A stretch of DNA of 64,000 nucleotides from Blattabacterium sp. (Blattella germanica) str. Bge. GTDB lineage: Bacteria > Bacteroidota > Bacteroidia > Flavobacteriales > Blattabacteriaceae. Under the pieces are notes generated by a model. The model made no database searches. It was given only the letters and a program-made list of their open reading frames with translations, and had not been told where the DNA came from. Of this stretch, positions 1,327-64,000 are shown in pieces (positions within the stretch are counted from its first letter, which is position 1; each line of letters starts with the position of its first letter). A program made the position numbers and the translations under genes. The stretch is from assembly GCF_000022605.2 (NCBI RefSeq), contig NC_013454.1, forward strand, positions 310,001 through 374,000. The letters run 5' to 3'.

Positions 1327-4300
1327 ATGAAAATAGACAAAGTACTTATCCTGGGATCAGGTGCATTAAAAATAGGAGAAGCTGGTGAATTTGATTATTC
1401 TGGAACACAAGCACTCAAAGCCCTTAAAGAGGAGGGGATTTATACTATACTGATTAATCCAAATATTGCCACAGTTCAAACTTCAAAAGAAATTGCTGAT
1501 AAAGTTTATTTTCTTCCTTTGACTTTATTTTTTATTCAAAGTGTTATAGATAAAGAAAAACCAAAAGGAATTTTATTGTCTTTTGGTGGACAAACTGCAT
1601 TAAATTGTGGAATTCAGCTTTTTCAAGAGGGAATTATCGAAAAATATAAAATTCAAGTTTTAGGAACCCCTATTGAATCTATTATTCACAGTGAAGATCG
1701 AAAATTGTTTCGAAATAGGTTGACTCATATTAATATAAAAACGGCAAAAAGTTTTGTAGTTCATTCTATGGATGATGCTATTTCCTATTCTTTAAAAATA
1801 GGATTTCCTATTATCATTAGATCTGCTTATACACTTGGAGGTTTGGGAAGTGGTTTTGCGAAAAATATTAATGATTTAAAAAAAATAGTAAGTAAGGCTT
1901 TTTCTTATTCTTCTCAAATTATTGTAGAAGAATATTTAGAAGGATGGAAAGAAATTGAATATGAAATAGTTAGAGATAAATATGATAATTGTATTTCTGT
2001 ATGTAATATGGAAAACTTCGATCCCATAGGAATTCATACAGGAGAAAGTATTGTAGTAGCACCATCACAAACTCTAACAAATTCTGAATATTATAGTTTA
2101 AGAAAATTAGCAATATCTATTGCTAGAAATTTTAATATAGTTGGAGAATGCAATGTTCAATTTGCATTAGACCCTAATTCAGAAGATTATCGTGTTATTG
2201 AAGTGAATGCACGTCTTTCTCGTTCAAGCGCTCTTGCTTCCAAAGCGACTGGTTACCCTTTGGCTTTTGTAGCTGCTAAATTGTCTTTAGGATACGGTTT
2301 ACATGAGTTGAAGAATGCTGTGACTAAAAATACTTCTGCTTTTTTTGAACCCGCGTTGGATTATGTTGTATGCAAAATTCCTAGATGGGATCTCAAGAAA
2401 TTTTATGGAGTTTCTAATAAAATAGGAAGTAGTATGAAAAGTGTTGGAGAAGTAATGGCTATTGGAGGTTCTTTTGAAGAAGCTTTACAAAAAGGGATTC
2501 GAATGTTAGACATCGGTATGCAAGGGTTCATAAACATGAATAAGAAAAAACAGGAGTCTAATCATTTACTGAAAGAATCCCTTAAAAAACCTACAGATCA
2601 AAGAATTTTCTTTTTAGAAGAAGCTTTAGAAGAAGGTTATTCTATGAAAGAAATACATGATTTAACGAAAATTGATCCATGGTTTTTATACCTACTTGAT
2701 AATATTTTTCAAACAAAAAAAAAGATAGATGATTTTGATAATTGGAGAGATGTTCCGGACGAATTGTTACGTAAAGCGAAAAAAGAAGGTTTTTCTGATA
2801 TGCAAATAGCTAGTATTTTTTTTAACAAACAAAGCGATCTATATAACAGTATTTCTCATTTAGAACAAGAAATAAGAGAATATAGAAAAGAAAAGAACAT
2901 AGTTCCATATGTAAGACAAATTGATACTTTAGCTTCTGAATATCCAGCATATACAAATTATTTGTATTTAACCTATCATGCCATTCAACATGATATCATT
3001 TATGAAAAAGATGATAAATCTGTTATCACATTAGGATCTGGTGTTTATAGAATTGGAAGTAGTGTAGAATTCGATTGGTGTTGTGTGAATGCATTAAATA
3101 CTATTAAGAAAGAATCTTATAGATCAATCATGATTAATTATAATCCTGAAACTGTGAGTACTGATTTTGATGTATGTGACAGATTATATTTTGAAGAGCT
3201 GACTTTAGAACGTGTATTAGATATTATTGAACTAGAAAAACCGAAAGGAACAATTGTTTCCATGGGAGGACAAATTCCTAATAATTTGGTTCTAAAACTT
3301 TATGAAAAAAAAGTAAAAATTTTGGGGACCTCCCCTATTTCCATAGACCAAGTTGAAAATAGATACAAGTTTTCTAATGCTATGGATCATTTAAAAATTG
3401 GACAACCTAGATGGAAAGAATTATCCGATTTTGATACTATTTATCAATTTGTCAAAGAAGTGGATTTTCCCATATTGGTTAGACCTTCGTATGTGCTTTC
3501 TGGTGCAGATATGAATGTTCTTTCTAATCAAGAGGAATTGCAACACTATCTTAGTGAAAAAGTATCTATATCTCCTGAATATCCATTAATTATTACAGAA
3601 TTTATTAGAAATGCAAAAGAAATTGAATTAGATGCTGTTTCTCAAAATGGAGAAATTTTGTATTATGCTATATCAGAACACGTAGAGTTTGCAGGAGTCC
3701 ATTCAGGAGATGCTACTTTAGTATATCCTCCACATAATCTCTATTTATCAACATTAAAAGAAATCATTTGTATATCCAAAAAAATATCCAAATATTTTAA
3801 TATATCTGGTCCTTTTAATATTCAATTTCTATCTAAAGATAATGAAATTAAAGTCATTGAGTGTAATTTGAGAGCCTCTAGAAGTTTTCCTTTTGTATCA
3901 AAAGTGTCTCATTTTAATATGATTGAATTAGCTACTCAAATTCTTCTTGGAAAAAAGAAAAATAAAGTAGAACCTAATTTTTTCATGACAAATTTTTTAG
4001 GAGTTAAAGCTTCCCAATTTTCTTTTTCTCGTTTGCAAAATGCAGATCCTATTCTTGGAGTGGATATGGCTTCAACAGGAGAGGTGGGATGTTTAGGAAA
4101 TACTTTTGATGAAGCACTTTTAAAATCCATGATTTCTGTTGGTTATACCATTCCAAAAAAAAATATATTGATATCTGGAGGTCCGATTGGATCTAAATTG
4201 GACCTTTTGGAGGTCGTAAAACTGTTGCATAAAAAAGGATATATATTATTTGCTACAGAAGGCACCAATAATTTTTTATCCAATCATGGAATTCCCTCTA

Positions 4301-61729: not shown

Positions 61730-62749
61730 ATGTTAATTAAAAAAAATTTTTCTCTCAAAAAATTTAATACATTTGGAATAAATGTTTATGCTCGTTATTT
61801 TGTAGAAGTGAAAAGTATAGAAGAAATTCAAAAAATTTTTGATATATATCCATCCATTCCAAAACTTTTTTTGGGAAATGGAAGTAATATTCTTTTTTTA
61901 AAAAATTATTATCCAGGATTAGTCATGAAAATGGGGGTTCAAGGAAAAAAAGTGATTCAGGAAAATGATTCTAAAGTGATTGTTCAAGCTTTTGCTGGAG
62001 AAAATTGGAATGAATTTGTAAAATGGACCATAAAAAAAGGATTTAGCGGTTTAGAAAATTTATCATTTATTCCTGGTACAGTTGGAGCTGCTCCCATTCA
62101 AAATATTGGAGCATATGGAACAGAAATCAAAGATTCTTTATTCAAAGTTCAAACGTATAAAACTGATAATCAAAAAATAATAGAATTTACACGTGAAGAA
62201 TGTCAACTCAAATATCGTTCTTCATTTTTCAAAAATCCTCATTACAGAAATAAATTTCTAATTTTATCTGTTTTTTTCTTTAAGAAAAAATATAAAAAAT
62301 TGAATACATCCTATGTGGAAATTCAAAAAGAATTAGAAAATATGAATATTAAAGAACCTACTATTAACGATTTAAGTAAAGCAATTTTTAATATTAGACA
62401 TCGTAAACTTCCAAATCCCAAAAAAATTGGAAATGCTGGTAGTTTTTTTTTGAATCCTATAGTGGGTATTTTGGATTTTCAAAAACTAAAATCTAAATAT
62501 CCCGCTATTATTGGTTATGATATTTCTAATGATAAAGTCAAATTATCTGCTAGCTCATTAATTGAAAGCACAGGATGGAAAGGAAAAAAAATTGGAAATG
62601 TAGGAGTATATGAGAGACAACCTATAATTTTAGTCAACTATGGAAAAGCTAGTGGAATGGATATATATTCTTTTTCAGAAAAAATAACAAAAGACATCAA
62701 AAAAAAATTGAACATTCTTTTATCAAGAGAAGTAAATATCATACGATAA
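61730..62749 (+). CDS. murB: UDP-N-acetylenolpyruvoylglucosamine reductase
   Basis: A 339-residue FAD-dependent MurB. FAD-binding motifs are LFLGNGSNILF and LSFIPGTVGAAPIQNIGAYG. The catalytic serine lies in IGNAGSFFLNPIV and the C-terminal active-site glutamate region follows. The length and Tyr-containing insertion segment (CQLKYRSSFFKN) fit the E. coli-like type I enzyme. It makes UDP-N-acetylmuramate for peptidoglycan, so cell-wall synthesis is retained. It is divergent from the YtxH-like gene. Confidence 0.95.
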   Translation: MLIKKNFSLKKFNTFGINVYARYFVEVKSIEEIQKIFDIYPSIPKLFLGNGSNILFLKNYYPGLVMKMGVQGKKVIQENDSKVIVQAFAGENWNEFVKWTIKKGFSGLENLSFIPGTVGAAPIQNIGAYGTEIKDSLFKVQTYKTDNQKIIEFTREECQLKYRSSFFKNPHYRNKFLILSVFFFKKKYKKLNTSYVEIQKELENMNIKEPTINDLSKAIFNIRHRKLPNPKKIGNAGSFFLNPIVGILDFQKLKSKYPAIIGYDISNDKVKLSASSLIESTGWKGKKIGNVGVYERQPIILVNYGKASGMDIYSFSEKITKDIKKKLNILLSREVNIIR

Positions 62750-62756
62750 GTCAAAA

Positions 62757-62855
62757 ATGAATCAAAAAAAATCCATAAAACAATTTGATCTTAATTCTTC
62801 CCTTTTTAAAGGGGGGTTGGGGAGTTCCGTCCCGTGTAATTTGATAAAAATTTGA
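62757..62855 (+). other. Small open frame spanning the GC-rich island
   Basis: An ATG at 62757 opens a 32-codon frame that reads through the G-rich block, encoding N-terminal M-N-Q-K-K-S-I-K-Q-F-D-L-N-S-S-L and a glycine-rich second half (L-F-K-G-G-L-G-S-S-V-P-C-N). It stops 4 bases before the next gene. I do not recognise the product, and it may simply be an uninterrupted stretch of a decayed repeat. Confidence 0.25.
62800..62836. repeat. GC-rich island with palindromic core, possible repeat remnant
   Basis: In otherwise very AT-rich intergenic DNA this block reads CCCTTTTTAAAGGGGGG, then TTGGGGAGTTCCGTCCCGTG. CCCTTT and AAAGGG form an inverted repeat with a 2-base loop, and GGGA/TCCC a second small hairpin. 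It resembles, from memory, the CCCTTTAAAGGGGGTTGGGG-type intergenic repeats of free-living Bacteroidota. No second copy occurs in this window. Confidence 0.45.
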
Positions 62856-62859
62856 ATTT

Positions 62860-63666
62860 ATGTCAATGACTATGACTTTAGAAAAATCAAAACAATACAT
62901 ACAAAACAAAATCAAAGAAAAACCTGATTTTGGAATTTTATTATTAGGAAGTCAGTTTGATAAACTAATAGAGGAGATTCAAAATCCTATATGCATTTCT
63001 TATGAAGAAATTCCCCTTTTTTCGAAAAAAAAATTATATGGAAAATTTTTATTTGGTCAAATAGAAGGGAAAAATGTGGTTTTTTTAATAGAACCTTTTT
63101 CTGAAGAAAATAGGACAAACTATTTTACTATTGTTTTGTGTAAACATATAGGAATCGATAAATTAATATTGATTAATATTTCTGGAGGAGTGAACCCCAA
63201 TTATAAAATGGGAGATGTAATGTTGGTTAAAGATCATATCAATTTTTTTCCAGAAAGCCCTAATATAAATGATTTGATAAAAAATCGATTTTTTGAAATC
63301 ACAGAACCATATGATCAAAAAATGTTAGAAATTGCAGAAAATATAGCCATGAATCATAATATAATTATCCAAAAAGGAGTTTATGTAGCTTTTCCCTATT
63401 CTAATTATAAAACCTATGCAGAATATGCTATGATAAGATCTATGGGGGGAGATAGTGTTGGAATGAATATAGTAACAGATGTCATTACTGCTAGATGTAT
63501 GAATCTACGAGTATTTGCCATATCCATTATTGTGATGGGGATGGGTTTATCTGAACCTAAGATTCAAAAGAATGCAGATTCTAGAAATACATTTTTTCAA
63601 GAAACGGAAAAATCTATATCTCTTCTAATATTAATAGTCAAAGAATTTATAAAACTTTGTTTCTAA
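62860..63666 (+). CDS. Purine nucleoside phosphorylase homologue with altered active site
   Basis: A 268-residue protein aligning end to end with trimeric PNP (ISYEEIPLFSKKKLYGKFLFGQIEGK, INISGGVNPNYKMGDVMLVKDHINF, RSMGGDSVGMNIVTDVITARCMNLRVFAIS). Catalytic positions have changed. By human PNP numbering: Arg84 is Pro79, His86 is Ser81, Tyr88 is Glu83, Ala116 is Ile107, Phe200 is Tyr183, Glu201 is Lys184, Asn243 is Met226; Ser33 (Ser31) and Asn115 (Asn106) remain. Normal phosphorolysis of inosine or guanosine therefore looks unlikely, yet the frame is intact. It may be an early pseudogene, a structural remnant, or an enzyme with new specificity. Confidence 0.75.
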   Translation: MSMTMTLEKSKQYIQNKIKEKPDFGILLLGSQFDKLIEEIQNPICISYEEIPLFSKKKLYGKFLFGQIEGKNVVFLIEPFSEENRTNYFTIVLCKHIGIDKLILINISGGVNPNYKMGDVMLVKDHINFFPESPNINDLIKNRFFEITEPYDQKMLEIAENIAMNHNIIIQKGVYVAFPYSNYKTYAEYAMIRSMGGDSVGMNIVTDVITARCMNLRVFAISIIVMGMGLSEPKIQKNADSRNTFFQETEKSISLLILIVKEFIKLCF

Positions 63667-63691: not shown

Positions 63692-64000
63692 CTATAATTG
63701 ATTTATAATATTTCTTGTAATTTTTAGAAAAATATTTTTAATTTTATCGTTTTTTAAAACCCCAGGAATTCCCAAATCTGAATATTTTCGTATTTCCTGT
63801 AACATAGGAATTTCTCCAAGGAAAAAAAGATTCATTTTTTTGGAAAAATTTTTGACTCCATTTTTTCCAAAAAAATAACATTTTTCTTTACTTTCTTTTG
63901 TAAGAACATAAGACATATTTTCTATAATTCCAAGAATTGGAACAGAAATAGATTGAATACGAAACATTCCTACTGACCTGTTTACATCCGATAACGCTAT
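63692..64000 (-). CDS. mrp: Mrp/ApbC P-loop ATPase, C-terminal part (5' end outside window)
   Basis: The minus-strand frame is open to the window edge and reads A-L-S-D-V-N-R-S-V-G-M-F-R-I, then SVPILGIIENMSY, YFFGKNGVKNFSKKMNLFFLGEIPM and IRKYSDLGIPGVL, the C-terminal third of the Mrp family. These ATPases act as iron-sulfur cluster carriers. The CxxC cluster motif of many Mrp proteins, normally soon after ENMSY, is absent here; I recall that many Bacteroidota forms also lack it. The Walker A motif and start are outside the window. The internal ATG at 63967 is not the start. Confidence 0.85.
   Translation of the reverse strand: MALSDVNRSVGMFRIQSISVPILGIIENMSYVLTKESKEKCYFFGKNGVKNFSKKMNLFFLGEIPMLQEIRKYSDLGIPGVLKNDKIKNIFLKITRNIINQL

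Follow-up and report, generated by a model that had tools for sequence, protein, structure and literature searches.

An apparently inactive purine-nucleoside phosphorylase homologue maintained under strong purifying selection in Blattabacterium

In this study, we describe a purine-nucleoside phosphorylase (PNP) homologue of Blattabacterium, here called pseudo-PNP, that, judging by its sequence, apparently cannot carry out the PNP reaction, although selection acts on it no less strongly than on a peptidoglycan gene. We consider it probable (roughly 0.62) that a PNP inactivated in an ancestor survives as a PNP-fold protein without phosphorolysis, working in binding or as a scaffold by way of residues 151-201. 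The genome of strain Bge, which lives as a symbiont in Blattella germanica (PMC2768785), totals 640,935 bases over two contigs, and the larger contig accounts for 636,850 of them. In the window (the whole 64,000-nucleotide stretch of DNA analysed), the pseudo-PNP open reading frame of 268 amino acids occupies 62860..63666 on the + strand, starts with ATG and contains neither a stop nor a frameshift in its 268 codons; the ORF call is accompanied by PF01048 and PRK08202 profile matches, a fold model and orthologues in 41/49 congeners. Upstream lies murB (61730..62749, + strand) and downstream, in convergent orientation, the 3' part of an mrp/apbC-like gene (63692..64000, - strand), and both serve here as genomic context and as yardsticks of selection. 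The intergenic stretch between murB and pseudo-PNP (62800-62859) holds CCCTTTTTAAAGGGGGG followed by the leader GTGTAATTTGATAAAAATTTGAATTT (62834..62859, + strand), which resembles the sequence of related strains, where the majority form is GTATAATTTGATAAAAACTTGAATTT. It is possible that this leader acts as a promoter or leader of pseudo-PNP, and the two elements together could represent a terminator plus a promoter.

Judged from its sequence, the Bge protein is a homologue of the trimeric-type PNPs and a member of the PNP_UDP_1 superfamily. It matches the PNP_UDP_1 profile (PF01048) with E=3.8e-29 and 102.2 bits against a gathering score of 25.1, and the NCBIfam purine-nucleoside phosphorylase profile PRK08202 with E=7.8e-52 over most of its length, and its nearest solved structures are bacterial trimeric PNPs. 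Its score falls under all of the curated PNP/MTAP equivalog cut-offs (PRK08202, PNPH, PUNA/XAPA, MTAP), reaching 176 bits where PRK08202 demands 218, 161 where TIGR01700 demands 293 and 155 where TIGR01697 demands 197. An AF2 structure model built with 23 Blattabacterium sequences was of middling confidence (mean pLDDT 71, pTM 0.73, residues 125-150 below 50). Its top Foldseek matches were all PNPs (E about 1e-20), and VIA gave Z scores of 25-28 over about 250 residues, with 4lna at Z 27.8 and an rmsd of 2.6 over 252 residues. The nucleoside phosphorylase alpha/beta (PNP-I) fold is thereby predicted to be kept.

Active-site positions such as H64, R84 and E201 are given in human PNP numbering. 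The 41 Blattabacterium orthologues were compared with 14 homologues of the same order, in all of which (14/14) H64, R84, H86, Y88, A116, F159, E201, S220, T242 and D243 are kept, with S or T at position 33 and H257 present in 11/14. Neither the phosphate site (S33, H64, R84, H86, S220) nor the base site (E201, N/D243) of PunA/PNPH is intact in the orthologues. At the L59-Y60 junction (63034..63039, + strand, as for all the segments that follow), a three-residue deletion, seen as a gap in 41/41, takes out the xGHSG segment, so that H64 is deleted throughout. Residues 79-83 (63094..63108) stand where the RxHxYEG motif carried R84, H86 and Y88; R84 is absent in 41/41 (proline in 32, P79 in Bge), and H86, which in Bge is deleted or S, is absent in 41/41. 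The phosphate loop GxGL has given way to GSQF at residues 30-33 (62947..62958, the S33 region), with glutamine at the G34 position in 38/41; S persists at position 33 in 14/41, among them Bge, and the remaining 27 have V, N, D, I or Y there. Residues 203-207, NIVTD (63466..63480), replace STVPE, and S220 has become N in 33, D in 7 and H in 1 (N203 in Bge), never S. The base-binding loop GPxFETPAE has been rewritten as PYSNYKTYAE (residues 179-188, 63394..63423), a motif fixed in the genus: G196 and F200 are each Y in 41/41, E201 is K in 39, R in 1 and N in 1 (K184 in Bge), and Y180, Y183 and T185 are each found in 41/41. The former VITDL/T242-N243 segment corresponds to residues 224-230 (63529..63549), where T242 is V in Bge and N/D243 is replaced or deleted in 41/41, and the former His257 loop to residues 231-250 (63550..63609), which are hypervariable and of variable length (omega 0.22) and preserve H257 in 0/41. 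A116 is I107 in Bge. F159, which in the PunA/PNPH homotrimer is contributed by the adjacent subunit, is retained in Bge, and the position is F in 35/41 orthologues.

The initial annotation, which had described an intact PNP homologue with its catalytic residues replaced, was right in substance, and the replacements and deletions prove to be genus-wide (41/41). Its R84 to P79 and E201 to K184 changes stand, as does the loss of R84, H86 and N/D243. Its F200 to Y change is conservative and uninformative, given that outgroups have F, L or Y, and, owing to the deletions, its exact residue pairing across the segments RFHYYEG and VITDL depends on the alignment and is uncertain; the three-residue deletion removing H64 and the losses of S220 and H257 had been missed. 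Because both the residues and the profile scores depart from those of a PNP, it would be wrong to classify pseudo-PNP as a PNP enzyme.

Among 49 Blattabacterium genomes searched with PF01048, 41 have exactly one member and 8 have none. The frame is uninterrupted in 41/41 carriers, with neither frameshift nor internal stop, which bears out and extends the earlier observation of 268 codons free of stops; the "stops" reported by the search in G032 and G070 lie upstream of the true start ATG. G007 (L026, near 1463-1501) lacks an in-frame ATG around the position where the gene normally starts, and it is possible that a TTG or other start is used or that the start codon has been lost. In seven gene-less genomes murB and mrp are adjacent, 40-230 nt apart (654 nt in G026), and nhmmer gave no significant match to a PNP remnant in the gene-less genomes. 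The 654-nt gap of G026 (L043, reversed strand, about 2515-3167) is AT-rich, with no gene or PNP remnant detectable in it. A tree of murB and mrp, which rests on these two genes and in which long-branch attraction is possible, places the seven gene-less genomes in at least three separate places, mostly on long branches. With at least three independent losses, fast-evolving lineages evidently can do without the protein. Five very small genomes from other genera of this family gave no match. The scores separate cleanly: no Blattabacterium orthologue falls below 379 bits, and no other PNP of the order exceeds 213 bits. As a side observation, murB of G015 (L044, about 1501-2525, reversed strand) is seemingly split into two overlapping reading frames; an assembly error or a frameshift within this essential gene is possible.

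Fitted to one shared tree of 29 genomes, one-ratio codon models gave an omega of 0.141 for pseudo-PNP, 0.129 for murB and 0.135 for mrp, and fixing omega at 1 (kappa fixed) lowered lnL from -10218.8 to -10894.6, a difference of 676. Between Bge (G000) and G011, dN is 0.040 and dS 0.275 (dN/dS about 0.14), and between Bge and G018, dN is 0.034 and dS 0.298 (about 0.11); since dN/dS is this low in close pairs, the Bge copy itself is not newly relaxed. The loss of the active site is older than the radiation of the genus, and together with these pairwise values this rejects the very recent release from selection that the initial annotation had entertained. Its other suggestion, a retained and changed function, has held up: the alignment and dN/dS comparison that it proposed revealed purifying selection with substitutions common to all 41 carriers, as a retained function predicts. 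With its catalytic residues lost, its predicted fold kept and purifying selection acting on it, pseudo-PNP is, as far as sequence and model can tell, a pseudoenzyme.

The constraint is unevenly distributed. Taken by segment, omega falls to 0.026 across residues 151-180 and is 0.073 in 101-133, 0.109 in 181-222 and 0.13-0.29 elsewhere. The lowest value covers a near-invariant helix-strand at residues 151-177 (YDxKMLEIAENIAMNHNIIIQKGVYVA, 63310..63390, + strand). R84, S220, T242, H257 and their neighbours are fixed in outgroups and evolve fast in Blattabacterium, and conversely M164, N165, H166, N167 and K172 (helix 160-172) and S194 are variable in outgroups and invariant in Blattabacterium, whereas N106, D125, H126, N128, E188 and D198 are conserved in both Blattabacterium and ordinary PNPs. 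The constraint has thus moved: the old catalytic loops are fast, and residues 151-201 (helix, strand, PYxNYKT loop, helix) are guarded. Synonymous diversity within 151-180 is 0.70-0.87 of expectation against a three-gene mean of 0.57. Synonymous change being free in the invariant block, the constraint acts on the protein and not on the nucleic acid, and an overlapping RNA or DNA constraint over the block is ruled out by this average-or-higher diversity. Synonymous diversity is low at the 5' end of pseudo-PNP, and the same pattern is seen in murB and mrp.

With regard to purine metabolism, PF00156 detected three phosphoribosyltransferase-type proteins in Bge, which are read from their sequences as PRPP synthetase (Prs), PurF and a PyrE-PyrF fusion. 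The last of these resembles an orotate phosphoribosyltransferase joined to an OMP decarboxylase in an ORF of about 487 codons (G000:C1, around 515312-515626, - strand, locus L200). The same search gave zero candidates for a purine-base phosphoribosyltransferase (apt, hpt, gpt, xpt) in Bge, so that a base freed by PNP could not be salvaged in that way. The missing salvage explains how catalysis could go, not why the protein stayed.

Partners of pseudo-PNP were sought by a whole-genome comparison in which G002 and G021, both carriers of the gene, were set against G034 and G020, which lost it independently. Eight genes fit this two-versus-two pattern, namely pnp itself, folE, QueD/PTPS, an lptG-like permease, a second permease, a MazG-like gene, MntH and an LptC-like ORF. 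Across the 49 genomes folE, QueD/PTPS and the lptG-like permease are kept in G009, G010 and G029 despite the loss of pnp, and are lost in G063, where pnp stays; the second permease is likewise present in the pnp-less G009, G010 and G029, and MazG-like and MntH carry stops in G021, which keeps pnp. None of these six genes therefore shares the loss pattern of pseudo-PNP, and any partner was never lost, or is in the host, or was missed by this coarse test. Independently of pseudo-PNP, folE (GTP cyclohydrolase I) and the QueD/6-pyruvoyl-tetrahydropterin-synthase-like gene (for example G002:C1:78438-79013 and G002:C1:436698-437105) are lost together in the same five of 49 genomes, G020, G026, G034, G064 and, as decayed copies, G063, and this perfect co-loss points to a single pterin pathway. 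The lptG-like YjgP/YjgQ permease has several stops in the close relatives G014 (G014:C1:256091-257169) and G032 (G032:C1:254903-255981) and is absent from six other Blattabacterium genomes; a loss of LPS export may possibly be under way.

It seems to us that these data are best accommodated by the following course of events. An ancestral flavobacterial PunA-type PNP would have lost phosphorolysis before the Blattabacterium radiation, and the loss of purine-base salvage may have taken away the need for catalysis. The PNP-fold protein would have been retained, probably still as a PNP-like trimer, with its 151-201 face holding a partner that the symbiont never lost or a host-facing partner, and selection would now maintain the fold and the binding, not the chemistry. 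Within this reading, a partner or scaffold role is favoured over a new ligand, because hypervariable sequence of changing length makes up three walls of the old pocket. Several points count against it: the constrained loop lies where the base used to bind and would suit a new ligand too, the gene has been lost at least three times, the genome comparison revealed no gene lost along with it, and the structure model is of middling confidence. In a more ambitious version, which is tentative and which we hold in some doubt, cockroach symbionts would have turned the PNP fold into a strongly constrained hub for non-catalytic interactions or ligand sensing, binding through the invariant 151-201 segment, which would have been conserved from the common ancestor of the Blattabacterium genomes sampled onwards.

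The rival that deserves most attention is a rebuilt base pocket, in which Q32, Y180, N182, Y183, K184, T185 and N/D203 together with the invariant H126 and N128 would form a small-molecule site, either for a ligand or for a new reaction. The fixed PYxNYKT loop, the nearly uniform change of G34 to Q and the six residues shared with ordinary PNPs all speak for it; we regard it as unlikely, in that conserved ligand sites do not usually have walls that are hypervariable in both length and sequence, as the R84/H86 loop, the T242-N243 segment and the H257 loop are here, and the greatest gain in constraint falls on helix 151-168, off the pocket. That pseudo-PNP might be a working PNP with an unusual, mis-aligned or compensated active site is very improbable: the full-length fold, the significant PRK08202 match and the retention of F159 and most fold residues would suit such an enzyme, but seven active-site residues (R84, H86, H64, S220, E201, N/D243, H257) are absent in every carrier with deletions in those segments, the scores lie below the curated cut-offs, and a phosphoribosyltransferase for the product was not found in Bge by PF00156.

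Plain decay, with the gene a pseudogene on its way out, is hardly conceivable and at the sequence level already refuted. Eight genomes lack the gene through at least three independent losses and the catalytic loops are variable, as decay would have it; against this, omega equals that of murB and mrp and is far from 1, disrupted copies number 0/41, and the invariant blocks persist in 30 aligned sequences whose identity goes as low as 60%. Nor does a storage or bulk structural protein, proposed by analogy with the plant bark storage proteins derived from nucleoside phosphorylases, seem at all credible: such proteins do serve nitrogen storage elsewhere (PMC3751785), but a storage role gives no reason to expect an invariant helix-strand of 30 residues together with a loop that is likewise invariant. 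The binding or scaffold protein acting through residues 151-201 is the reading that we prefer.

It is assumed that a gene retained in a minimal genome serves the function given in its annotation, and automated annotation would call pseudo-PNP a PNP. Metabolic models of Blattabacterium should handle it cautiously, and as a pseudoenzyme that became fixed while the genome shrank it provides a clean case open to testing. A literature search, with most subscription journals outside its scope, found nothing on PNP in Blattabacterium or on a PNP pseudoenzyme. Pseudoenzymes are known as a kind; what appears to be new is a genus-wide, strongly constrained and apparently inactive PNP in a minimal genome. 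With the trimeric PNPs of the PunA/PNPH type (PRK08202; PDB 4lna, 4ns1, 8swt), pseudo-PNP has in common its descent, full-length fold, gene length and the NxSGG and DHIN core motifs; it differs from them in that its phosphate-, sugar- and base-binding residues are replaced or deleted, its score lies below the family cut-off and its constraint has moved to residues 151-201. The vegetative and bark storage proteins of Populus (BSP/WIN4) are similarly nucleoside-phosphorylase-like proteins that serve something besides nucleoside salvage (PMC3751785), although these are plant proteins of storage abundance and the comparison is drawn at the level of the superfamily. The Dis3/RNase II-like pseudonucleases (PMC8097288) differ in fold, organism and ligand, which is RNA, and resemble pseudo-PNP in that an enzyme fold outlives catalysis and is reused for binding.
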